A stretch of 25,398 nucleotides of DNA, taken from a virus. Below are positions 6,538 to 15,807 of this stretch, one piece after another. The DNA lies in the IMG/VR virus record IMGVR_UViG_3300027142_000052, positions 1-25,398 of that record; one strand, given 5' to 3'. A model generated the notes under the pieces. The model saw only the letters and a program-made list of their open reading frames with translations, was not told the origin of the DNA and did not search any database. The translations under genes were made by a program, and so were the position numbers. How positions within the stretch are numbered: position 1 is the first letter of the stretch; the number at the start of each line of letters is the position of its first letter.

Positions 6538-6744
6538 ATGAACAACATTAAACGCGATACAGCGCCTTCTAGGAGTCAATTAAAGATTGCTGGCCATATG
6601 ACATCATCAGATAAGCAAATCCTTATGGATCATGCTAAGTCTCTTAAACAACAAGGTGGCCGTGGAGCTGCTAAGGAACTAGAGAGAATGAATAAAATGT
6701 ACGCTCCTTATGGGTTGTCATTTGGTAAAATTGAGGGTGCATAA
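6538..6744 (+). CDS. Unrecognised small protein upstream of TerL
   Basis: 68 residues, basic and helical (for example ILMDHAKSLKQQGGRGAAKE). The stop codon overlaps the TerL start (TAATG), a sign of coupled translation. Small proteins at this place in T7-like cyanophages are common, but no function is known for them. It could help packaging because of its place only. Confidence 0.6.
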   Translation: MNNIKRDTAPSRSQLKIAGHMTSSDKQILMDHAKSLKQQGGRGAAKELERMNKMYAPYGLSFGKIEGA

Positions 6745-8486
6745 TGGATAATGTCCTCTCTGCTTTGAGAGGCGATTTCAAGCTGTTCCTACAAGCACTG
6801 TGGCAACAGCTTGATCTACCCTCTCCTACCCGTGCTCAATACGCCATTGCTGATTACCTACAACACGGTCCTAAACGACTACAGATCCAAGCCTTCCGAG
6901 GAGTCGGTAAGAGCTGGATTACTGGAGCGTTTGTGTTGTGGACACTCTTCAATGACCCTGAGAAGAAGATTATGATCATCTCGGCTTCTAAGGAACGTGC
7001 GGATAACATGTCGATCTTCCTACAGAAGTTAATCATTGAGACACCGTGGTTAGTGCACCTTAGACCTAAGAGTGATGATAGTCGTTGGAGTCGCATTAGC
7101 TTTGATGTTAACTGTTCTCCTCACCAAGCACCATCAGTCAAAAGTGTAGGCATCACAGGTCAGCTTACTGGTAGCCGTGCAGACCTCATGATTCTTGATG
7201 ACATCGAAGTACCTGGCAACAGCATGACTGAGATGATGCGAGAGAAGCTATTGCAACTCTGTACGGAAGCTGAGTCTATCCTTACACCTAAAAAAGATAG
7301 TCGTATCATGTACCTCGGTACACCACAGACTACCTTTACCATCTACCGTAAGCTAGCAGAACGTAACTACCGTCCCTTTGTGTGGCCATCTCGTTACCCA
7401 CGTAAGGATAAACTATCACAGTATGAAGGTCTACTATCCCCACAGATTGTAGAAGACATAGAGATGGGTGTAGAGGAGTGGGCCCCTACAGATCCTGACC
7501 GTTTTACATCTGAAGATCTAGTAGAACGTGAAGCTGCTATGGGTCGTAGTAACTTTATGTTACAGTTTCAATTAGACACAACTTTGAGTGATGCAGAAAA
7601 GTTCCCACTTAAATTCAGTGATCTTGTCGTTACCGCTGTTAACCCGACTCAAGCGCCGGATGCTGTTGTGTGGTGCAGTGACCCTCGTAATTGTCTCAAG
7701 GATCTGCCTACGGTTGGCCTACCTGGCGATTACTTCTACTCCCCGATGCAGCTCCAAGGAGAGTGGAGTGCGTACAGTGAAACCATATGCTCAGTAGACC
7801 CTAGTGGTCGTGGTACAGATGAAACGGCAGCAACATACATAAGTCAAAAGAATGGATTTCTCTACGTTCACGAGGTACGAGCGTATCGCGACGGTTATAG
7901 CGATAACACACTTCTTGACATCCTTCGTGGGTGTAAGCGTTATAACGTTACCAAACTTGTTGTTGAAACAAACTTCGGAGACGGTATCGTCGCAGAGCTG
8001 TTTAAGAAGCACCTCCAACAAACTAAACAAGCAATAGACGTAGAGGAAGTACGTGCTAATGTCCGTAAAGAAGACCGTATCATCGATACCCTAGAACCAG
8101 TCCTTAACCAACATAGACTCATCGTAGATAGGTCGGTAGTAGAGTGGGACTATAACTCTAATAAAGATGCCCCTCCAGAGGATCGTCTACTGTATATGCT
8201 CTTCTACCAAATGTCTAGGATGTGTCGGGAGAAGGGTGCTGTTAAACACGACGACAGATTAGACTCATTAGCACAAGGTGTTAAATATTTCATTGATGCT
8301 ATGGGTATCTCTGCTTATGAAGCTGTTAAGATGCGTAAACAGGAGGAGTGGCAAGACATACTAGACACATTTATAGATGACCCAATAGCTGCTACAAACC
8401 ACCTAGTTATGGGGATGAATCTAGACCAAAGACGTAAGGCTAGAGGTAAGACAAAAAGCTCTACTCCTATGTGGATAAGCCTGTGA
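6744..8486 (+). CDS. Terminase large subunit (DNA maturase B, T7 gp19-like)
   Basis: 580 residues, close to T7 gp19 (about 586). Walker A is QAFRGVGKSW (residues ~49-58), Walker B is DLMILDDIEVP (~147-157) with the catalytic Glu, and the coupling motif is YLGTPQT (~190-196). The C-terminal nuclease domain shows SVDPSGRGTDE (Asp352, Asp359), VVETNFGDG (Glu408) and HDDRLDSLAQGVKYF, matching the acidic metal site of gp19. It is the ATP-driven motor that packs DNA into the prohead and cuts the concatemer. It is translationally coupled to the gene upstream and is followed by a long structured 3' region with a terminator. Confidence 0.95.
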   Translation: MDNVLSALRGDFKLFLQALWQQLDLPSPTRAQYAIADYLQHGPKRLQIQAFRGVGKSWITGAFVLWTLFNDPEKKIMIISASKERADNMSIFLQKLIIETPWLVHLRPKSDDSRWSRISFDVNCSPHQAPSVKSVGITGQLTGSRADLMILDDIEVPGNSMTEMMREKLLQLCTEAESILTPKKDSRIMYLGTPQTTFTIYRKLAERNYRPFVWPSRYPRKDKLSQYEGLLSPQIVEDIEMGVEEWAPTDPDRFTSEDLVEREAAMGRSNFMLQFQLDTTLSDAEKFPLKFSDLVVTAVNPTQAPDAVVWCSDPRNCLKDLPTVGLPGDYFYSPMQLQGEWSAYSETICSVDPSGRGTDETAATYISQKNGFLYVHEVRAYRDGYSDNTLLDILRGCKRYNVTKLVVETNFGDGIVAELFKKHLQQTKQAIDVEEVRANVRKEDRIIDTLEPVLNQHRLIVDRSVVEWDYNSNKDAPPEDRLLYMLFYQMSRMCREKGAVKHDDRLDSLAQGVKYFIDAMGISAYEAVKMRKQEEWQDILDTFIDDPIAATNHLVMGMNLDQRRKARGKTKSSTPMWISL

Positions 8487-9013: not shown

Positions 9014-9664
9014 ATGCATACTACCACCCCACCACTTCACTCCGTTCAGCTAGTACACATTACCCCTAACGCTGAAGAGCTTATAGCTTACATGGCTAGG
9101 GTAAGTAACCCAGCTAATCAAAACAACACTGAGACCAGTGCTAAGTTAATTAAGTATCTTATTGACCATCAACATTGGTCACCCTTTGAGATGGTTAATA
9201 TGTGTGTATCTATAGAGACAACAAGGAGTATAGCAGCACAGATCTTACGACATAGGAGCTTTAGCTTCCAGGAGTTTAGCCAACGGTATGCTGAAGTACA
9301 GCTCAGACCTGAGTTACCAGAGATGAGAAGGCAGGATCTGAAAAATAGACAGAACAGTGTTGATGACCTTCCTCTTGGTGTGTTGCATGAATGCGATCAA
9401 GTAGTTGGACAAGCATTGGTAACTAGTTACCGAGCATATGAACGTCTGTTAGAACTAGGTGTAGCTAAAGAGTGTGCTAGAGAAGTATTACCTCTTTGTA
9501 CACCCACTAAGTTGTATATGAACGGTACCATTAGGTCTTGGATTCACTACTGTCAACTACGCTGCGGTAACGGTACACAAGAGGAGCATAGGATCATTGC
9601 CAATGGTGCCTATAAGCTCCTACAAGAGCATCTACCTAGTGTGTGCTCTGCATTCACTGTCTAA
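9014..9664 (+). CDS. thyX: Flavin-dependent thymidylate synthase ThyX
   Basis: 216 residues, the usual length. The ThyX signature is present as RHRSFSFQEFSQRY (residues 79-92), with the substrate-binding arginines and the Ser of the family motif RHRxxSxxxxSxR. Further conserved parts are ARVSNP near the N-terminus and HWSPFEM. The enzyme makes dTMP from dUMP with methylene-tetrahydrofolate and NADPH through FAD. It fits with the ribonucleotide reductase and MazG-like genes at 22.2-24.6 kb to supply dNTPs, but is separated from them and sits at the end of the late block. The ATG at 9014 has no clear Shine-Dalgarno site; no better start is seen. Confidence 0.95.
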   Translation: MHTTTPPLHSVQLVHITPNAEELIAYMARVSNPANQNNTETSAKLIKYLIDHQHWSPFEMVNMCVSIETTRSIAAQILRHRSFSFQEFSQRYAEVQLRPELPEMRRQDLKNRQNSVDDLPLGVLHECDQVVGQALVTSYRAYERLLELGVAKECAREVLPLCTPTKLYMNGTIRSWIHYCQLRCGNGTQEEHRIIANGAYKLLQEHLPSVCSAFTV

Positions 9665-9713
9665 CGTGTTAGAGGGGCCTCTCTACCGACGCTGGGGGGG
9701 GTCTCCTTAATTT

Positions 9714-9741
9714 TTGACATAATTTTAACAAGCCTTATATC
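9714..9741 (+). promoter_or_regulatory. Sigma70-type promoter P1
   Basis: TTGACA (9714-9719, full consensus), 16-base AT-rich spacer, TATATC (9736-9741, 4 of 6). It sits inside the loop of a 9-bp inverted repeat of G and C runs (9692-9700 with 9761-9769). It would start RNA near 9748, upstream of the hairpin-rich region and with no gene for some 760 bases. Confidence 0.55.
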
Positions 9742-9812
9742 GACAGTGGACCTCGTAATTCCCCCCCAGTGCCCCCCTCTTGCGATCAAGGACTCACACG
9801 GTATAACAATAG

Positions 9813-9930
9813 ACACCACTGTATATAGTGCACTGCTAGCCAGTGGTATACTAATTGGTAGCGGTGGAGTACTGGGTACAGCTGGTTAGTAACTGGTGGT
9901 GGAAGGGTATAACGCTATATGTAGTGGTGT
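9813..9930 (+). ncRNA. Candidate structured RNA of about 118 nt
   Basis: The ends pair as ACACCACTGTATATAG (9813-9828) with CTATATGTAGTGGTGT (9915-9930), 14 of 16 positions complementary. Inside are CACTG-CTAGC-CAGTG (9831-9845, perfect), GTAC-TGG-GTAC (9869-9879) and the dyad GTTAGTAAC. It begins about 65 bases downstream of the expected start from P1. No open frame of note lies in it. Whether it is an RNA product, a DNA cruciform or a protein-binding array is not decided by the sequence. Confidence 0.4.
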
Positions 9931-9943
9931 TAGGATATGGTGA

Positions 9944-9963
9944 CACTAGGTAGATACCAAGTG
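9944..9963 (+). repeat. Imperfect palindrome, possible operator
   Basis: CACTAGGTAGATACCAAGTG reads as CACT-a-GGTA-ga-TACC-a-AGTG, a 20-base dyad that could bind a dimeric protein or form a short hairpin. A further stem follows at 9966-9971/9990-9995 (CTGTCT with AGACAG), and another with one mismatch at 10023-10030/10040-10047. Confidence 0.35.
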
Positions 9964-10227
9964 ATCTGTCTGCCCCTCTTAACTCAGTTAGACAGTGCAG
10001 CTATAACGCTCTCAGACACGCCTAGAAGCGGCTATAAGGCGCCTCTAACAGTTAATAGGTATACTGAGCCCTAGAGCACAGTAGAGAGGCATTGTAGACG
10101 GTTATCAATAGTTTGTTCACACTCACGCTACTTATCACCTAGGTCCGTACGACATACACCACGATACCAAACCACTATGTGGTACCGATGCCACCACTAA
10201 TTGGTAGCTAGGAGCCCAACTTAGGGC

Positions 10228-10256
10228 TTGACAAGGCGGCTCGGATGGGCTATGGT
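10228..10256 (+). promoter_or_regulatory. Strong sigma70-type early promoter P2
   Basis: TTGACA (10228-10233), exactly 17 bases of spacer, TATGGT (10251-10256). Transcription would start near 10263 and run into the early genes at 10512 onward. A GC-rich hairpin begins at once (10267-10278 with 10283-10295, GGCG-agac-CGCC at its tip), and a second, partly exclusive stem (GACCGC 10280-10285 with GCGGTC 10305-10310) is possible. This is the best candidate for the promoter read by host RNA polymerase on infection. Confidence 0.7.
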
Positions 10257-10347
10257 AGGTTCATCGGTGGGGGAGGCGAGACCGCCACTCCTCACTCAGC
10301 ACCAGCGGTCCTTTCGCTACGCTTCAGCACCTAGACAATTGCATATT

Positions 10348-10430
10348 TAGGTCGTCACAAGACGGAACTAGTGGAGCGAGCGATCCCACGAGTAGTTATA
10401 GGTTGCAACCCGACCTGACTACACGACCTA
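10348..10430 (+). ncRNA. Branched structured leader RNA candidate
   Basis: TAGGTCGT (10348-10355) pairs perfectly with ACGACCTA (10423-10430). Enclosed are a 9-bp arm, AACTAGTGG with CCAC-gag-TAGTT, and a self-complementary GGTTGCAACC. The layout is a three-way junction in the 5' leader downstream of P2 and upstream of the first early gene. It is not a tRNA: the T-arm stem does not pair. It may regulate early gene expression or protect the 5' end. Confidence 0.35.
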
Positions 10431-10511
10431 GTGTGCGTTAGCACTAACACAGAGCCACATGTGTTTAATAAATTAGATCATGGCAATTGTCCACCATTAA
10501 CGGAGTTAACT

Positions 10512-10664
10512 ATGTCCCTTACTCTTGACCGTAAAGTAGCTACTGGTCTTCTCAGTAAAGCTACTACTGGTAATGATCTCTTGTCTGTACTTGAGATGAT
10601 TACATCTACCTTTACCAAACCACCTGTTAACAACGAACCTACACTTGAGGAGATTGAGTTTTAA
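10512..10664 (+). CDS. First early gene, unrecognised 50-residue protein
   Basis: 50 residues, starting MSLTLDRKVATGLLSKATTG and ending in acidic PTLEEIEF. The ATG at 10512 is chosen over an upstream GTG (10431) because GGAG lies just upstream (CGGAG at 10501-10505) and because the GTG lies inside the leader hairpin. It is the first gene after promoter P2. No family recognised. Confidence 0.6.
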   Translation: MSLTLDRKVATGLLSKATTGNDLLSVLEMITSTFTKPPVNNEPTLEEIEF

Positions 10665-10738
10665 TGCTAGCTTTAGCTATCCTAATCATCGGCACCATTT
10701 ACACTATTAAGGAGGTCAATGACAACGTATTCCTTTGA
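10664..10738 (+). CDS. 24-residue candidate membrane peptide
   Basis: The stop of the previous gene and this start overlap as TAATG. The product, MLALAILIIGTIYTIKEVND plus NVFL, is a single hydrophobic helix with a short polar end. It ends inside the next gene (overlap 20 bases). The pattern of coupling used throughout this cluster supports translation, but the reading frame is short enough to be chance, and it also contains the Shine-Dalgarno site of the next gene. Confidence 0.4.
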   Translation: MLALAILIIGTIYTIKEVNDNVFL

Positions 10739-10937
10739 TCAATTGCGTGATGCTGTGCAGGAATGCACCAGCTATGATCTTGTTCAACGCTTTAGTGATG
10801 ATGAGGATGAGTATGTACTCGTTGATCCTTATGGAGATGTGGATGGTGAGCCCTTCTATGATCTTAATGATGTAGAAGACTTCATCCGCAATAACGATCA
10901 AGTTGATCAGTACCTCTACGAACTCACCAACAAATGA
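10719..10937 (+). CDS. Unrecognised acidic early protein
   Basis: 72 residues, strongly acidic (Asp/Glu-rich, for example FSDDEDEYVLVDPYGDVDGE). AAGGAGG at 10709-10715 is one of the few consensus Shine-Dalgarno sites in the window, so the protein should be made in quantity early. Acidic small early proteins of phages often mimic DNA or bind host enzymes; that is inference here. It overlaps the next gene by ATGA. Confidence 0.7.
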   Translation: MTTYSFDQLRDAVQECTSYDLVQRFSDDEDEYVLVDPYGDVDGEPFYDLNDVEDFIRNNDQVDQYLYELTNK

Positions 10938-11083
10938 CTTATACCATTTCACGTATGGATGATGAGGGCAACTGGATTGCTCTTGAGTCATTCGAGACAT
11001 ATAGTGAGGCTGAGATGAATCACGATTGGTATAGTGACAAATATCCCTATGCCTTAGTTGATATCGTCAGCACACTAGAGTAA
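10934..11083 (+). CDS. Unrecognised 49-residue early protein
   Basis: 49 residues, MTYTISRMDDEGNWIALESF at the start, acidic, ATGA overlap with the preceding gene. No family recognised. After its stop there are 61 bases without a gene before the anti-restriction-like gene; the stretch contains no clear promoter or terminator. Confidence 0.6.
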   Translation: MTYTISRMDDEGNWIALESFETYSEAEMNHDWYSDKYPYALVDIVSTLE

Positions 11084-11144
11084 CACTTGTCCCTTTCATT
11101 CACATAATTTGTTCACTACGTTCACAATCACGAGGCCTAACGTT

Positions 11145-11720
11145 ATGACCACTGCTGTTGTTCCATTTATGCTCAAGGGTGATGCACTTGTTGCATTCGT
11201 CGATGAGAGAATGGAATTAGTTAACCGGGGTGAGCAGACTCGCACTGAGATGATCAAGGACGCTGGCTACATGTATGACAATGGTAAGCCTATGTACACT
11301 GAGTTCTACACTGAGCTACTCAATGCACGAGGTATTGTACCCACCACTGATACAGACAAAGCTGATCAAGAGTATGATGACCTGACCAGTGAGGAGAAGG
11401 ATCTCTATGATAAGATCACTGATATGCTTGGTGAGAAGTGGACTCATGAGGAGACTATTGAGTTCATGGATGAGCTGTATGAGAATGGCATCAACACTGC
11501 TAGTGAGTTTGAGGAAGCTTATGAGTACACCCATGATAGCTACTCTAGCTATGCTGAGAAAGAGTTCAGTGAGTACTTTTGTATCGAAGTGATGGGAGCT
11601 GAGATTCCAGAGTGTGTCCTCTGTGCTGTAGATTGGCAAGCTGTGTGGGATCATAACCTACGTTATGACTTCTGTAGCATTGAGACTGTTAACGGTACCT
11701 TCTTCTTTCGTAATAACTGA
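11145..11720 (+). CDS. AbrB-type segment fused to ArdA-like anti-restriction domain
   Basis: 191 residues. Residues ~8-65 follow the pattern of the N-terminal part of cyanobacterial AbrB-type regulators (cyAbrB): L-x-G-x-x-L ... R-x-E ... GY ... FYTELLNARGI, where cyAbrB proteins read roughly CGY ... DFYxALLxARGI. Residues ~95-190 look like an ArdA-type anti-restriction protein: FEEAYEYTHDSYSSYAEKEF, then IPECVLCAVDWQAVWDHNL and a C-terminal SIETVNGTFFFRNN; the protein is highly acidic, as expected for a DNA mimic. ArdA proteins block type I restriction enzymes. The ATG at 11145 with GAGG upstream is preferred over a TTG at 11109. Early position fits a defence-blocking job. The domain calls are from motif reading and need a profile search. 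Confidence 0.6.
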   Translation: MTTAVVPFMLKGDALVAFVDERMELVNRGEQTRTEMIKDAGYMYDNGKPMYTEFYTELLNARGIVPTTDTDKADQEYDDLTSEEKDLYDKITDMLGEKWTHEETIEFMDELYENGINTASEFEEAYEYTHDSYSSYAEKEFSEYFCIEVMGAEIPECVLCAVDWQAVWDHNLRYDFCSIETVNGTFFFRNN

Positions 11721-11722
11721 TT

Positions 11723-11881
11723 ATGCATAACTTTAGAGTTGTACTTGACAGCGTTGACAACCCTGGTAAGTTCACCTTCATTGATGTTGACAACGCTAAG
11801 GACCTAGAGGATTGTATCAACTCTATTCGTACTGAATGGGATCATCAGTTCACTATTCAACAAATCACTGAGGTTAACTAA
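11723..11881 (+). CDS. Unrecognised 52-residue early protein
   Basis: 52 residues with an alternating beta-like first half (FRVVLDSVDNPGKFTFIDV) and an acidic helix, three bases after the preceding stop and coupled to the next gene by TAATG. A small alpha/beta fold is likely. Function unknown. Confidence 0.6.
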   Translation: MHNFRVVLDSVDNPGKFTFIDVDNAKDLEDCINSIRTEWDHQFTIQQITEVN

Positions 11882-12051
11882 TGACTATCTTGCAATACAA
11901 AGTCATGTCGTACATCACAGCTGATGATACTCAGCCATACTGTCACGGGTATTACGATACAGAAGAAGCAGCCCAACGTGTAGCAAACGACTACAATAAC
12001 ATGTGGGCATACATCGAGCACAAACTCTACGCAAAGGTTGAGCACGTATGA
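11881..12051 (+). CDS. Unrecognised 56-residue early protein
   Basis: 56 residues (starts MTILQYKVMSYITADDTQPY), with a beta-hairpin-like first half, then a helix EEAAQRVANDYNNMW. The spacing recalls small host-takeover proteins of cyanophages, but no match is claimed. Coupled on both sides (TAATG before, ATGA after). Confidence 0.6.
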   Translation: MTILQYKVMSYITADDTQPYCHGYYDTEEAAQRVANDYNNMWAYIEHKLYAKVEHV

Positions 12052-12203
12052 CTGAACAAAACATTATCCTTGCTGTGATTGGTATGGTTGGATTGTTTGC
12101 TACGGCTACTATCTTCCAACGTGCTAATCGCATCACTAGCCGCTACTACGCTAACAAGATCAATCGTGATCTTATCGATCTCAATAACCGCACCTTTAAC
12201 TGA
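12048..12203 (+). CDS. Small single-pass membrane protein
   Basis: 51 residues: a membrane segment at residues ~5-22 (NIILAVIGMVGLFATATIF) followed by a basic, Asn-rich tail. It could act on the host membrane early in infection. It starts by ATGA overlap; a 20-base gap follows. Confidence 0.6.
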   Translation: MTEQNIILAVIGMVGLFATATIFQRANRITSRYYANKINRDLIDLNNRTFN

Positions 12204-12223
12204 CCGCCACCCACTTAACTAAG

Positions 12224-12469
12224 ATGACTGTTTTCACACTCACAAACTACTGCGATTGCGGTTCTACCAACATTCTTGGTGTCTTCAATAGTATGGAGGC
12301 TGTGATTGAGCGTATGCGTGTCTTGGCTGCTATGACTGATCCTGGTGATGAGTATCGCATTGAATGCTTTGAGGTAAAGACCTTTGAGGAAGAGGAGGAG
12401 AACACTTCACGTATCCTTCGCTCTCGTGCAGAGTGGAAGGCTAAGCAAGCTAAGATGGAGGAAGAGTGA
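12224..12469 (+). CDS. Unrecognised 81-residue early protein
   Basis: 81 residues. The first half is beta-like with a CDCGS turn and a helix SMEAVIERMRVLAAM; the second half is an acidic then mixed-charge helix (EEEEENTSRILRSRAEWKAK). The overall pattern (strand, Ser/Met-x-E-A-V helix, strand) is shared by many small phage proteins. No function known. Its stop overlaps the next start (TGATG). Confidence 0.6.
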   Translation: MTVFTLTNYCDCGSTNILGVFNSMEAVIERMRVLAAMTDPGDEYRIECFEVKTFEEEEENTSRILRSRAEWKAKQAKMEEE

Positions 12470-12648
12470 TGCATGACACTGCTATTAAAGTTGATGTCTA
12501 CCCTGATGAATTCAAGCCTATTATGAAGGCACTCAAGTACTCGCTATTGTGTGATGACTCACGCAAGGTATTGACTGGTGATGAGTGGTCTACTCTTAAT
12601 GGGTGGCTTGACTACTTCTCTGATGTTGCACTTAATGAGGGTATCTAA
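12469..12648 (+). CDS. Unrecognised 59-residue early protein
   Basis: 59 residues beginning MHDTAIKVDVYPDEFKPIMK, acidic, Trp-containing C-terminal helix (DEWSTLNGWLDYFSD). The ATG at 12469 is preferred to a GTG three bases upstream because it makes the TGATG overlap seen across this cluster. No family recognised. Confidence 0.6.
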   Translation: MHDTAIKVDVYPDEFKPIMKALKYSLLCDDSRKVLTGDEWSTLNGWLDYFSDVALNEGI

Positions 12649-12818
12649 TGGCTAAAGCATTGACTGATGAACAACGTAAACTGCGTCTTGAGATGATTGA
12701 TATCGTAGCTCAAGGCATTAAGACACAAGCTCATGCTGGCTACTATGATGCTGCTCAAGTAGAGTACCTGACAACACAGGTTAAGCGTGTTGCTAAGTTC
12801 CTTTGCGTTGCTAACTAA
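12648..12818 (+). CDS. Unrecognised 56-residue helical early protein
   Basis: 56 residues, all helical and slightly basic (EQRKLRLEMIDIVAQGIK, then VEYLTTQVKRVAKFL). TAATG overlaps at both ends. Function unknown. Confidence 0.6.
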   Translation: MAKALTDEQRKLRLEMIDIVAQGIKTQAHAGYYDAAQVEYLTTQVKRVAKFLCVAN

Positions 12819-12982
12819 TGTACACCACACATAAAGGTCTGCGTGAGTATGAGATCACGCTTGGTTCAGGTGTTTGGTATCTCCTAGCACCCAGCTCTGA
12901 AGCTGCTGCATGGACAGCATTGGAGTTGTCCAAAGAACGTAATGATGAGTTGCTTAATGTTAAACAAACTGATGAATGGTAA
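12818..12982 (+). CDS. Unrecognised 54-residue early protein
   Basis: 54 residues: a beta-hairpin-like start (YEITLGSGVWYLLAP) then a helix (SEAAAWTALELSKERNDELL). TAATG overlap before and after. Unknown function. Confidence 0.6.
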   Translation: MYTTHKGLREYEITLGSGVWYLLAPSSEAAAWTALELSKERNDELLNVKQTDEW

Positions 12983-13293
12983 TGGGTAAGAAGAAAGAGT
13001 ATCCCAACAACTGGCAAGAATACAAAGATGCTGATGATGACATGTTCCATGCTCATACCTATGAGGAGATCATGTCTTGGAAGGTAGCAGGTTGGGAACT
13101 CCCATCTTCTGTATGCTGTATCATCCGCACCTCTGACCTTAAGACAAAGAAGGTTAAGGAGTATGTCTACCAGAAGCGTAGTGCTGCACAAGCTAAGGTA
13201 GATGCATTGATCGACACACCTGACATTGAGTTCACTGTTGTTGATCACGAGTCCATTCATTTCCTCACCCCTACTAATTTCGATTATGAGTAA
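12982..13293 (+). CDS. Conserved cyanophage early protein, function unknown
   Basis: 103 residues. The segments MFHAHTYEEIMSWKVAGWEL, PSSVCCIIR and FTVVDHESIHFL resemble a conserved hypothetical protein I recall from T7-like cyanophages, located just before the RNA polymerase there too. The ATG at 12982 (TAATG overlap) is chosen over one at 12976. The last eight bases overlap the next gene. A mixed alpha/beta fold is likely. Confidence 0.65.
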   Translation: MGKKKEYPNNWQEYKDADDDMFHAHTYEEIMSWKVAGWELPSSVCCIIRTSDLKTKKVKEYVYQKRSAAQAKVDALIDTPDIEFTVVDHESIHFLTPTNFDYE

Positions 13294-13423
13294 CACCACC
13301 TTTTCTCGTCGCCTTCAACAACTGATCAAGCAAGTAGAGAATCATCCTAATCGTGATGAGATCATCAAACTTGCACAAGAACAACTTGTTGATGATACGT
13401 TCACAATCACCAGCGTTAACTAA
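13286..13423 (+). CDS. Unrecognised 45-residue protein before RNA polymerase
   Basis: 45 residues, helical, MSNTTFSRRLQQLIKQVENH then an acidic end. The ATG at 13286 overlaps the previous gene by 8 bases. Its stop codon abuts the TTG start of the RNA polymerase, so its translation probably feeds ribosomes to the polymerase gene. Confidence 0.6.
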   Translation: MSNTTFSRRLQQLIKQVENHPNRDEIIKLAQEQLVDDTFTITSVN

Positions 13424-15763
13424 TTGGCTACACCTGCACAGATAGATGAACAGGTAGCGTTAGAGCGAGAGCAAATCAGGCAAGGACTCCAGCGCCTTAG
13501 AGATAATACTCGTAAGCTACAGGATCAAAGCTATGCAAGTGCTACGGTGTATGGTGCAGCGTCTATTGATGCGTTGTTACCTGCACTTGTTAAGTACATT
13601 GAAGAGACCACTGAATACCGCCTTAAGCGAGGTTCTGGTCACCAGTTTGACATCATCAAGAACTATGTCACTCAGTTAGAGCCATTGGCTGCTGCTGCCA
13701 TTGCATTAAAGATTACCTTTGATCATGTGTTCTCCACTAAGAAAGGTAATGATCAACTGCAATCAGTATGTGATGGCATCGGTCATGCTATTGAGTCTGA
13801 GTGTCAGATGCGTTACTATGAGAAGTCAGCACCTGGTCTACTAGCTGTACTCAAGAAGAACTACTTCCATAGGTCTATTGGTACACACCAAAAACTGGTG
13901 GTTATCCGTACACTTATGAATAGGTCTGATGTACCTGATTGGGAGGCTTGGGGTAGAGCTAATCGCATTAAGCTAGGTGCATGGCTACTTGACTGCATTA
14001 TGACTACTAGTGGGTGGTTCGTAAAGGAGCTACGTAGGCTTGGAAAGGTAACGGTCACCTTCGTGGTACCAACACCTGAGTTCCTCGCTATCAAGGACAA
14101 GGTAATGACTGAGGCAGAGCTGTTTGCTCCACTTGCTTGGCCAATGCTCATCGAACCTAACGATTGGACTAGTGATCGTGCTGGTGGTTACCTTCTCAAC
14201 GAGGTAATGCGAGGCTATCCTTTGGTTCGTCGTGGAGATCCCACCCGTCTACAGGAGGGTACCCCCATTGAGTTCTTAAACAGGATTCAGAAGGTAGCTT
14301 ACCAGATAAATCCCTTTATTTATGGGGTAGCTGAGGAGTTAGTAGAATTAGAACGCTCCGTTGGTAAGTTCCTTCCTATTGTTCATCATCCTCTTCCTGT
14401 TAAACCTGCTGATATTGAAACTAACTACGATAGTCGTAAGGATTATCGGAGAAGAGCAGCAGAGGTGAGGAACATACAAGCACAAGAGCCTAAGAAGTCA
14501 TGCCGAACACGTATGACAATGGAGGCAGCTAAACGATTCAAGGATAGGGAGAGGTTCTTTTGTCCATGGTCATTTGACTATAGAGGAAGAGCATACCCTA
14601 TCCCTGCTTTCTTAACACCACAAGATACTGACTTTGGTAAGTCATTACTTAGGTTTGCTGATGGTGCTTATATGGTACCAGAAGCTGAGTCGTGGTTAGC
14701 ATTCCATGTAGCAACCTGTTATGGGTTAGATAAAGCTACAATGGAGGATAGGTTAGAGTGGGTGTCTAATAACATCACACTCATCAGCCGAATTGCTACT
14801 GATCCGATTGGGTCTTTACCTGAGTGGGAAGTAGCAGAAGAACCATGGCAATTCTTAGCTAGTTGTGATGAGTATTATCATTGCGTGATCGCAGCTGATA
14901 GACAATTTACAACCCTGCCTGTTGCTGTAGACGCTACGTGTAGTGGTCTCCAAATCTTGGCTGGACTTGCACGAGATAAATCAACAGCTAAACTAGTTAA
15001 TGTATTACCTGGTGATAAACCACAAGATGCCTATAAGGTAGTGGCTGAGGTAGCTATGCCCTCAGTACCTGAACGCTTACGTCCATTCCTAGATAGGAAG
15101 AAGACCAAGCGATGTGTTATGACCATCCCTTACAATGCTAAGCCTTACTCCAACAGGGGTTACATTAAAGAGGCTTTCTTGGAGGATGGGATAGAGCTTG
15201 AGAAGGAAGAGCTAACTCAAGTTGTTCAAGCTATCAGGTCAGCTATGGATGTGGTCGTACCAGGTCCTATGGCTGTCATGAAATGGATTGAGGCTGAAGT
15301 AGCTGCTGCTGTTAAGCGTGGTGCTAAACACTTGGAATGGGTAACACCATCTGGGTTTGTTGTACACCAGAAGCTAAACAAGAAACAGTTCCAGTCTATG
15401 GAGCTACAGTTACTGGGTCGTTGTAAGATGAAGGTGGCAGTTGGGGAGACTGATGAGGTCGACCTTAATCACCACAAGAATGCAACAGCTCCTAACCTTA
15501 TCCATTCACTCGACGCTAGCCTGCTACATTTGAGTGTCTTACGCTTTGATGCACCCATTGCTCTTATCCATGATTCTGTGCTTTGCCGTGCAACGGATAT
15601 GTCCTCCCTGTCTACTATTGTCAGAGAGACATACATGCACCTCTTTGCAGAGCATGATTACCTACGAGACTTTGCCAAGTACATTGGTGCAGAGTCTGAA
15701 CCACCGATCATTGGTGATCTAGAACCAGAGACCGTTATTGAGAGTACGTATTTCTTCTGCTGA
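13424..15763 (+). CDS. Single-subunit T7-like RNA polymerase
   Basis: 779 residues, about 100 shorter than T7 RNA polymerase (883). Motif T/DxxGR is FDYRGRAYP (residues ~384-392); motif A is AVDATCSGLQ with catalytic Asp503; motif B is RKKTKRCVMTIPYNAKP with Lys562 and Tyr570; motif C is ALIHDSV with Asp717; NLIHSLDASLL precedes it. The enzyme would transcribe the replication and structural genes. The start is TTG directly after the upstream stop (TAA TTG); no Shine-Dalgarno site is seen, so it relies on coupling and is probably made in small amounts. A terminator follows immediately. Confidence 0.95.
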   Translation: MATPAQIDEQVALEREQIRQGLQRLRDNTRKLQDQSYASATVYGAASIDALLPALVKYIEETTEYRLKRGSGHQFDIIKNYVTQLEPLAAAAIALKITFDHVFSTKKGNDQLQSVCDGIGHAIESECQMRYYEKSAPGLLAVLKKNYFHRSIGTHQKLVVIRTLMNRSDVPDWEAWGRANRIKLGAWLLDCIMTTSGWFVKELRRLGKVTVTFVVPTPEFLAIKDKVMTEAELFAPLAWPMLIEPNDWTSDRAGGYLLNEVMRGYPLVRRGDPTRLQEGTPIEFLNRIQKVAYQINPFIYGVAEELVELERSVGKFLPIVHHPLPVKPADIETNYDSRKDYRRRAAEVRNIQAQEPKKSCRTRMTMEAAKRFKDRERFFCPWSFDYRGRAYPIPAFLTPQDTDFGKSLLRFADGAYMVPEAESWLAFHVATCYGLDKATMEDRLEWVSNNITLISRIATDPIGSLPEWEVAEEPWQFLASCDEYYHCVIAADRQFTTLPVAVDATCSGLQILAGLARDKSTAKLVNVLPGDKPQDAYKVVAEVAMPSVPERLRPFLDRKKTKRCVMTIPYNAKPYSNRGYIKEAFLEDGIELEKEELTQVVQAIRSAMDVVVPGPMAVMKWIEAEVAAAVKRGAKHLEWVTPSGFVVHQKLNKKQFQSMELQLLGRCKMKVAVGETDEVDLNHHKNATAPNLIHSLDASLLHLSVLRFDAPIALIHDSVLCRATDMSSLSTIVRETYMHLFAEHDYLRDFAKYIGAESEPPIIGDLEPETVIESTYFFC

Positions 15764-15807
15764 GTTAGCGTCTCCTCCATAGATAGGAGGCACGCTTTTT
15801 CTAACTC
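15762..15807 (+). terminator. Rho-independent terminator nested in an outer stem
   Basis: Inner hairpin: GCGT...CCTCC (15768-15778) with GGAGG-c-ACGC (15786-15795), loop ATAGATA, followed by TTTTT (15796-15800). An outer 7-bp stem, GAGTTAG (15762-15768) with CTAACTC (15801-15807), encloses it, sharing base 15768 with the inner stem. It closes the early unit right after the RNA polymerase. Confidence 0.8.

Follow-up and report, generated by a model that had tools for sequence, protein, structure and literature searches.

Genomic context of the non-coding block

The DNA stretch analysed here (25,398 nucleotides, hereafter the window) represents part of the genome of a T7-like cyanophage, with strong phage-family matches for RNA polymerase, terL, thyX, primase-helicase and DNA polymerase. 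Judged by these sequences, the single-subunit RNA polymerase together with the T7-type terminase and replication genes places the phage in the Autographiviridae. The closest named record is Synechococcus phage DSL-LC07, itself a metagenome assembly, which is 78.7% identical across 87% of 4 kb. Between the end of thyX (9664) and the ATG of the first early gene (10512) lies a block of 847 bp that, as an earlier note on this DNA had claimed, holds no convincing gene; no tRNA or tmRNA was found in it either. The G8, C7 and C6 runs mentioned in that note are present, and so is its 13-bp direct repeat, ACTAATTGGTAGC, found at 9850 and 10196. One copy (9850-9862) lies inside the predicted terminal repeat and the other (10196-10208) in the unique left end. 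This direct repeat is also present in the relative L110 and partially retained in DSL-LC07. The features of the locus are listed in Table 1.

Table 1. Features of the late-early gene boundary and of the early unit (positions in the window).
Feature	Position	Strand	Basis or remark
Large terminase (terL)	6744-8486		phage family match
thyX	9014-9664		phage family match; last gene in late order
Right-end cut-site motif TTTTGACATAATTTTAACAAGCCTTA	9712-9737	+	predicted genome end immediately 3'
Predicted direct terminal repeat, 226 bp	9738-9963	.	landmark rule; single copy here
C-tract at +24 of repeat	9761-9767	+	terminus landmark
ATCTGTC, T7 concatemer-junction (CJ) type motif	9964-9970	+	first bases of unique left end
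Conserved left-end block, phased GCTATAA/CCTAGAA/CCTCTAA repeats	9997-10073	.	alignments with relatives
Early host-type promoter TTGACA-17-TATGGT	10228-10256	+	sole sigma70-type + strand promoter found
boxA-like element GCACCTAGACAATTGCATA	10327-10345	+	16/19 match to host rrn spacer GAACCTTGACAACTGCATA
Three-way-junction leader RNA	10348-10430	+	covariance model R1, 113.8 bits in window
P1 helix	10348-10355/10423-10430	+	part of three-way junction
Invariant junction sequence	10356-10370	+	part of three-way-junction RNA
P2 helix	10371-10374/10386-10389	+	part of three-way junction
P3 helix	10392-10396/10418-10422 and 10400-10405/10411-10416	+	part of three-way junction
H-type pseudoknot	10447-10484	+	covariation across 32 distinct sequences
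Pseudoknot S1; S2	10447-10451/10460-10464; 10454-10457/10481-10484	+	covariation
Pseudoknot loop GAGCCACA	10452-10459	+	pairs with TCATGGC downstream
First early gene (50 aa, MSLTLDRKVATGLLSKA...)	10512-10664	+	ribosome site GGAG 10502-10505
Phage single-subunit RNA polymerase	13424-15763	+	phrog_414, E 4.7e-221; probable end of early unit
Terminator-like hairpin just past RNA polymerase gene	15770-15791	+	consensus scan only

The earlier note had singled out this block for its density of hairpins. Its folding energy as a whole gives z = -2.35 or -1.67, varying with the shuffle set, a modest gain over shuffled sequence. For twelve equally long segments from the rest of the window z lies between -5.4 and +1.35. 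Set against these, the whole block is unexceptional in folding, and its energy was rejected as evidence because other segments reach lower values. Two local segments, 9815-9934 and 10265-10434, stand out with z of about -3. The listed inverted repeats fared unequally: that at 10348-10430 is the outer helix of a covarying RNA, whereas that at 9813-9930 was rejected as a conserved structure, its 3' arm being absent in two relatives (L106 and L118). With hairpin energies modest, one repeat unkept and another covarying, the useful signal is conservation and covariation, not hairpin density. Alignment with relatives, which the note had proposed as a check, gave a clear outcome: conservation is strong and stems covary, and an alignment of five relatives displays strongly conserved islands within a poorly conserved background. 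The unremarkable fold energy of the whole block would suit an ordinary spacer with chance hairpins, a reading that strong conservation and covariation refute and to which we give practically no credence.

The block is real and not a product of chance, but "hairpin-dense" is the wrong label for it; it consists of two halves. The first (9712-9970) is a predicted junction of right and left genome ends with a 226-bp terminal repeat, and the second (10228-10511) contains the early promoter and a folded leader RNA. The note's reading of the block as a left-end control region holds in that both parts are there, and they correspond to two of the uses it had envisaged, packaging ends and RNA products. 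Its third suggestion, an array of protein sites, found no support, though the block at 9997-10073 could be one.

Predicted genome ends

Judging by homology, the segment 9712-9970 is almost certainly a T7-type concatemer junction. Four junction landmarks were calibrated on records that carry their terminal repeat (T7, T3, Syn5, P-SSP7, S-TIP37 and S-SBP1). The exact end repeats in these records measure 160 bp in T7, 237 bp in Syn5, 206 bp in P-SSP7, 150 bp in S-TIP37 and 180 bp in S-SBP1. The motif TTTTGRCA sits 26 nt ahead of the repeat in Syn5, S-TIP37, S-SBP1 and P-SSP7; T7 lacks it and reads CATAAAAAT at the counterpart position. The first bases past the repeat are ATCTGTT/C in T7, T3, Syn5, S-TIP37 and S-SBP1, and ACCTGTT in P-SSP7. 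A C-tract (C5 or longer) is found at +24 to +27 in T7, T3, S-SBP1, S-TIP37, Syn5, P-SSP7 and gh-1, as well as in 43 of 44 relatives. T3 follows both the after-repeat motif rule and the C-tract rule, and gh-1 is a near fit, the after-repeat motif falling just inside its annotated repeat. In SP6, ATCTGTT occurs at 174; the portion of K1F that was examined showed no junction landmark.

In the window ATCTGT[CT] occurs once on the + strand, and the combined landmark rule has one match with one consistent solution; control DNA (125 kb) and shuffled sequence (10 Mb) gave none. In relatives the rule predicts 44 distinct repeats, between 138 and 368 bp long. An unplanned test came from the 46,028-bp contig of the relative L100, which starts at the exact predicted first base of the repeat and carries at its opposite end a partial second copy (268 nt, 98.5% identical). 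The window contig has one copy of the predicted repeat and the relative G005 two; a single copy is what one would expect of a collapsed assembly, a contig that runs through the concatemer or circular junction. Circular assembly has been shown to hide the terminal repeats of P-SSP7 (PMC3350473).

The predicted repeat lies between the last late and the first early gene, the position of a T7-type terminal repeat, and by sequence it is accompanied by the corresponding landmarks (right-end motif, C-tract near +25 and A(T/C)CTGT(T/C) after the repeat). Cutting at 9712-9970 together with duplication of the repeat would give a linear virion genome, as in T7. The junction resembles those of T7, Syn5 and P-SSP7 in its late/early gene slot, after-repeat motif, C-tract position and similar repeat length, and differs from them in that the repeat sequence is unlike theirs and is predicted rather than mapped. 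Two sigma70-type promoters had been proposed in the block. The one at 10228-10256 was found and is conserved, but the TTGACA at 9714 is inside TTTTGRCA, which stands at a constant 26 nt from the DNA end and is therefore likelier to be a packaging signal than a promoter. The conserved left-end block at 9997-10073 is possibly the counterpart of the short repeats beside the T7 terminus.

Two observations were made on the ends of relatives. The record NC_025456 (S-CBP1) was opened within the leader; by the landmarks, its terminal repeat would be the 183 bp at 45934-46116. The sequence TTATTGAGAATGAnTTGCAATAA or a near variant occurs inside the predicted terminal repeats of L094, L095, L228, L230, L232 and L100; it is an inverted repeat resembling the cyanobacterial Fur (iron) box, present in many relatives and absent from the window.

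Early promoter and extent of the early unit

Nearly every relative retains the early promoter, some 95-125 nt ahead of the junction RNA, and transcription is expected to start near 10263-10265. A consensus scan of the + strand between 10225 and 16300 found no terminator-like site other than that just past the RNA polymerase gene. The promoter and this lone site suggest that the early unit probably extends from about 10264 to 15790. Across relatives the order promoter, boxA, junction RNA, first gene is fixed, and the first gene itself varies. The first early gene of OQ999402 (20000-20206) is annotated from an AUG that belongs to the pseudoknot helix; its real start is probably the ATG 54 nt downstream, which corresponds to 10512 in the window. 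No recurrent phage-polymerase promoter motif was found across the intergenic regions of DSL-LC07, and the Syn5 promoter sequence was rejected for the window, where it has just weak matches with 4 mismatches.

The boxA-like element

The element GCACCTAGACAATTGCATA is the best boxA match in the whole window, the next on the + strand scoring 13/19. It is found at a fixed distance from the junction RNA in 53 distinct leaders, which match the host 19-mer at 12-17 positions, against a typical 9/19 for random stretches; the best relatives match at all 19. Many relatives carry GAACCTTGACAACTGCATA exactly (for example L250 and L272) or with one change, and the phage consensus is identical at every base to the 16S-23S spacer sequence of Synechococcus. 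Synechococcus RCC307 and WH 5701 have an exact copy of this 19-mer in their 16S-23S spacer, past the tRNA genes and ahead of 23S. With at most one mismatch it is present in 128 of the 150 host-order genomes searched (0 for a reversed-pattern control). At 16 of 19 positions the window's element agrees in sequence with the rrn boxA, and it is likely to be a true one. We take the cyanobacterial spacer sequence to be a boxA because of its location, its likeness to known boxA and, in part, the spacer literature. A partial complement of the 19-mer lies about 3 kb away, across 23S, so the host sequence may also be conserved as a strand of an rRNA processing stem.

The early leaders of other T7-like phages carry GCTCTTTAACA, at 813 in T7, 781 in T3, 656 and 926 in SP6, 669 in K1F and 728 in gh-1. 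This is the exact proteobacterial boxA; it also fits the E. coli rrnB leader and the published boxA consensus GYTCTTTAANA (PMC5725501). The stretches of Syn5 and P-SSP7 that were examined showed no good boxA.

A three-way-junction leader RNA

Directly after the boxA-like element, the segment 10348-10430 has near-invariant junction and loop sequences and helices that vary by compensation. RNAalifold recovers the three-way junction unaided from 19 distinct sequences. By pair counting, 97.3% of pair positions are paired and 12 pairs have changes on both sides. Covariation scores 0.416; shuffles score 0.125, none of 500 reaches the observed value, and slid controls give at most 0.08. A covariance model finds one copy per locus in 65 loci (46 distinct), plus one truncated copy; its E-values are rough and its bit scores safer. 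The 46 distinct rows are 97.1% paired with a covariation score of 0.374 (0.101 in shuffles), in a model-fitted alignment, which is biased toward the model. Of 45 scored rows, 41 retain a U.G pair and the others have another paired type; this wobble identifies the + strand as the folded strand. P3 varies in length by 2 and 22 nt, which speaks against a coding sequence, and an optional additional hairpin is inserted there in L103 and L108. The first gene behind the RNA varies from phage to phage, so the element does not belong to any single gene. We are virtually certain that it is real and folded.

In the thyX tree of cyanopodoviruses the RNA occurs in a single part, not all of whose members have it. 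L017, L019 and S-CBP4 (NC_025464, 419-629) have a different conserved leader RNA in its slot, placed in L017 and L019 behind the same promoter type. Rfam 15 gave no match in the window and, in the block, just chance-level matches, none above a family threshold. The exact core was not found in bacterial genome contigs, no copy was found in plasmids, and a search of 299 host-order genomes, run with strict filters and no positive control, returned none. The leader is also absent from the published descriptions found in a limited open literature. The three-way-junction RNA is a previously uncatalogued, strongly conserved family of leader RNAs.

An H-type pseudoknot

A second fold follows before the first early gene. 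In 32 distinct sequences of this pseudoknot 95.1% of cells are paired, and six of nine pairs show two-sided changes. The pseudoknot helix changes in compensation from GCCA/UGGC to CCCA/UGGG in L019 and S-SBP1, and the window's own S1 carries a compensatory change. A pattern scan matches at least 120 viral stretches and none of 200 host genomes. The pseudoknot occurs just 5' of short genes also in contigs where boxA and the junction RNA are absent (twice in the 60-kb contig L262, 12267-12651, and once in L285, 2903-2935), which points to a broader phage 5'-UTR element.

Five marine relatives (L008, L123, L251, L254 and L301) have a T-arm-like hairpin GTTCGAGTC and an acceptor-like helix directly after the pseudoknot. 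Most of these sequences are not called as tRNA; ARAGORN reports a weak tRNA-Met in L254, and Rfam gives no match. The feature resembles a truncated tRNA-like RNA; L273 has a real tRNA-Thr in the same place.

Proposed role of the early leader

From the observed order, sequences, folds and conservation of the leader parts we infer how they may act. Host RNA polymerase would start the early operon at 10228-10256, and the phage RNA polymerase gene would close that operon. As it emerges, the leader would expose a host-type rRNA boxA, then the three-way junction, then the pseudoknot. The boxA may recruit host NusB-S10 with other Nus factors, and the junction RNA and pseudoknot, folded beside the polymerase, may help hold, shape or assemble the modified complex; alternatively, the polymerase complex may aid the folding of these RNAs. 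The 5.5-kb early operon could then be copied fast and without premature stops up to the phage polymerase gene. We assign a probability of roughly 0.65 to this reading, in which the block joins a concatemer junction to an early leader that acts through boxA and folded RNA on host polymerase. A function of the leader specifically in elongation or antitermination, suggested by analogy, falls slightly short of even odds. A strongly terminator-resistant polymerase would make the terminator after the polymerase gene puzzling. Cyanobacteria are generally described as lacking Rho, and protection from Rho cannot then explain the leader.

The strongest rival is a role in RNase protection or processing, in which the junction RNA and pseudoknot would shield the 5' end of the early mRNA from RNases or mark a cut site. 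RNase III sites in T7 leaders offer a likeness, the T3 annotation placing such a site directly after the T3 boxA, and the element's independence of the first gene and the pseudoknots ahead of short genes in the unrelated contigs L262 and L285 would fit. This role leaves the fixed upstream host boxA unexplained, and the invariant junction resembles a binding surface more than a plain protective hairpin; we consider it rather unlikely, at about one chance in four by our estimate. The boxA bears also on an action in trans, by which early RNA would soak up host Nus factors or disturb rRNA processing. The boxA-like stretch being the exact host spacer sequence in L250 and L272 speaks for this, but each genome has a single such stretch, at a fixed cis position that separates promoter from operon, and no terminator would release a short RNA, which makes such an action improbable.

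Covarying helices round an invariant 15-nt junction and loops, together with the optional P3 hairpin, are typical of aptamers and could indicate a ligand-sensing riboswitch for the first early genes. Against that assignment, the downstream gene varies between phages, Rfam has no match, and no expression platform is seen, neither a terminator nor a covered ribosome site following the RNA (the ribosome site of gene 1 lies about 70 nt past P1 and about 18 nt past the pseudoknot). A riboswitch is accordingly a minor possibility, hardly better placed than the action in trans. Proximity to the predicted terminal repeat might suggest instead that the conserved folds act as DNA, in a replication origin or in packaging recognition. 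The conserved U.G pair would, however, be a mismatch in DNA and an A-C mismatch in the opposite strand. The elements are preceded by a conserved promoter and separated from the junction by about 380 bp, and we regard this reading as very improbable.

Returning to the leader as an element that acts on host polymerase, a broader and more speculative proposal can be made, to which we lean less than to the alternative of its being wrong: that a new leader RNA family (three-way junction plus H-type pseudoknot) and a copied host rRNA boxA remodel host polymerase on the early operon, and that T7-like phages in general, from those of E. coli and Pseudomonas to cyanophages, have the host's rRNA boxA in their early leaders. 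Environmental genomes of T7-like cyanophages are often deposited as circles, with ends wrong or missing, and the landmark rule places such ends within about 1 base. The leader holds an uncatalogued RNA family, a second family of pseudoknots and a host-matched boxA; together these parts suggest an rRNA-type control of host polymerase in the minutes before the phage polymerase takes over.

Comparison with known leader RNAs

The proposed action can be likened to that of the rrn, lambda nut and HK022 put elements. With rrn boxA and lambda nut the leader would share a host boxA sequence in nascent RNA just past a strong host promoter; it differs from them in having a three-way junction and a pseudoknot, not a boxB hairpin, and in that Nus binding is here a prediction. 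The leaders of T7 and T3 (RNase III site R0.3) likewise combine a host boxA with folded RNA before gene 1. Their folds are unrelated in sequence to those of the window, which lacks a long hairpin of the RNase III type.

HK022 put consists of two stem-loops and requires no dedicated protein factor (PMC9378689). Like the window's RNA, it is a gene-independent cis RNA of about 70-80 nt downstream of a phage early promoter (PMC9378689). The two are not identical: the consensus fold in the cyanophages is a three-way junction, not two stem-loops, with a boxA upstream, and no sequence relation is seen. As an analogy, HK022 put is the closest working one for a cis RNA of such size near early promoters.
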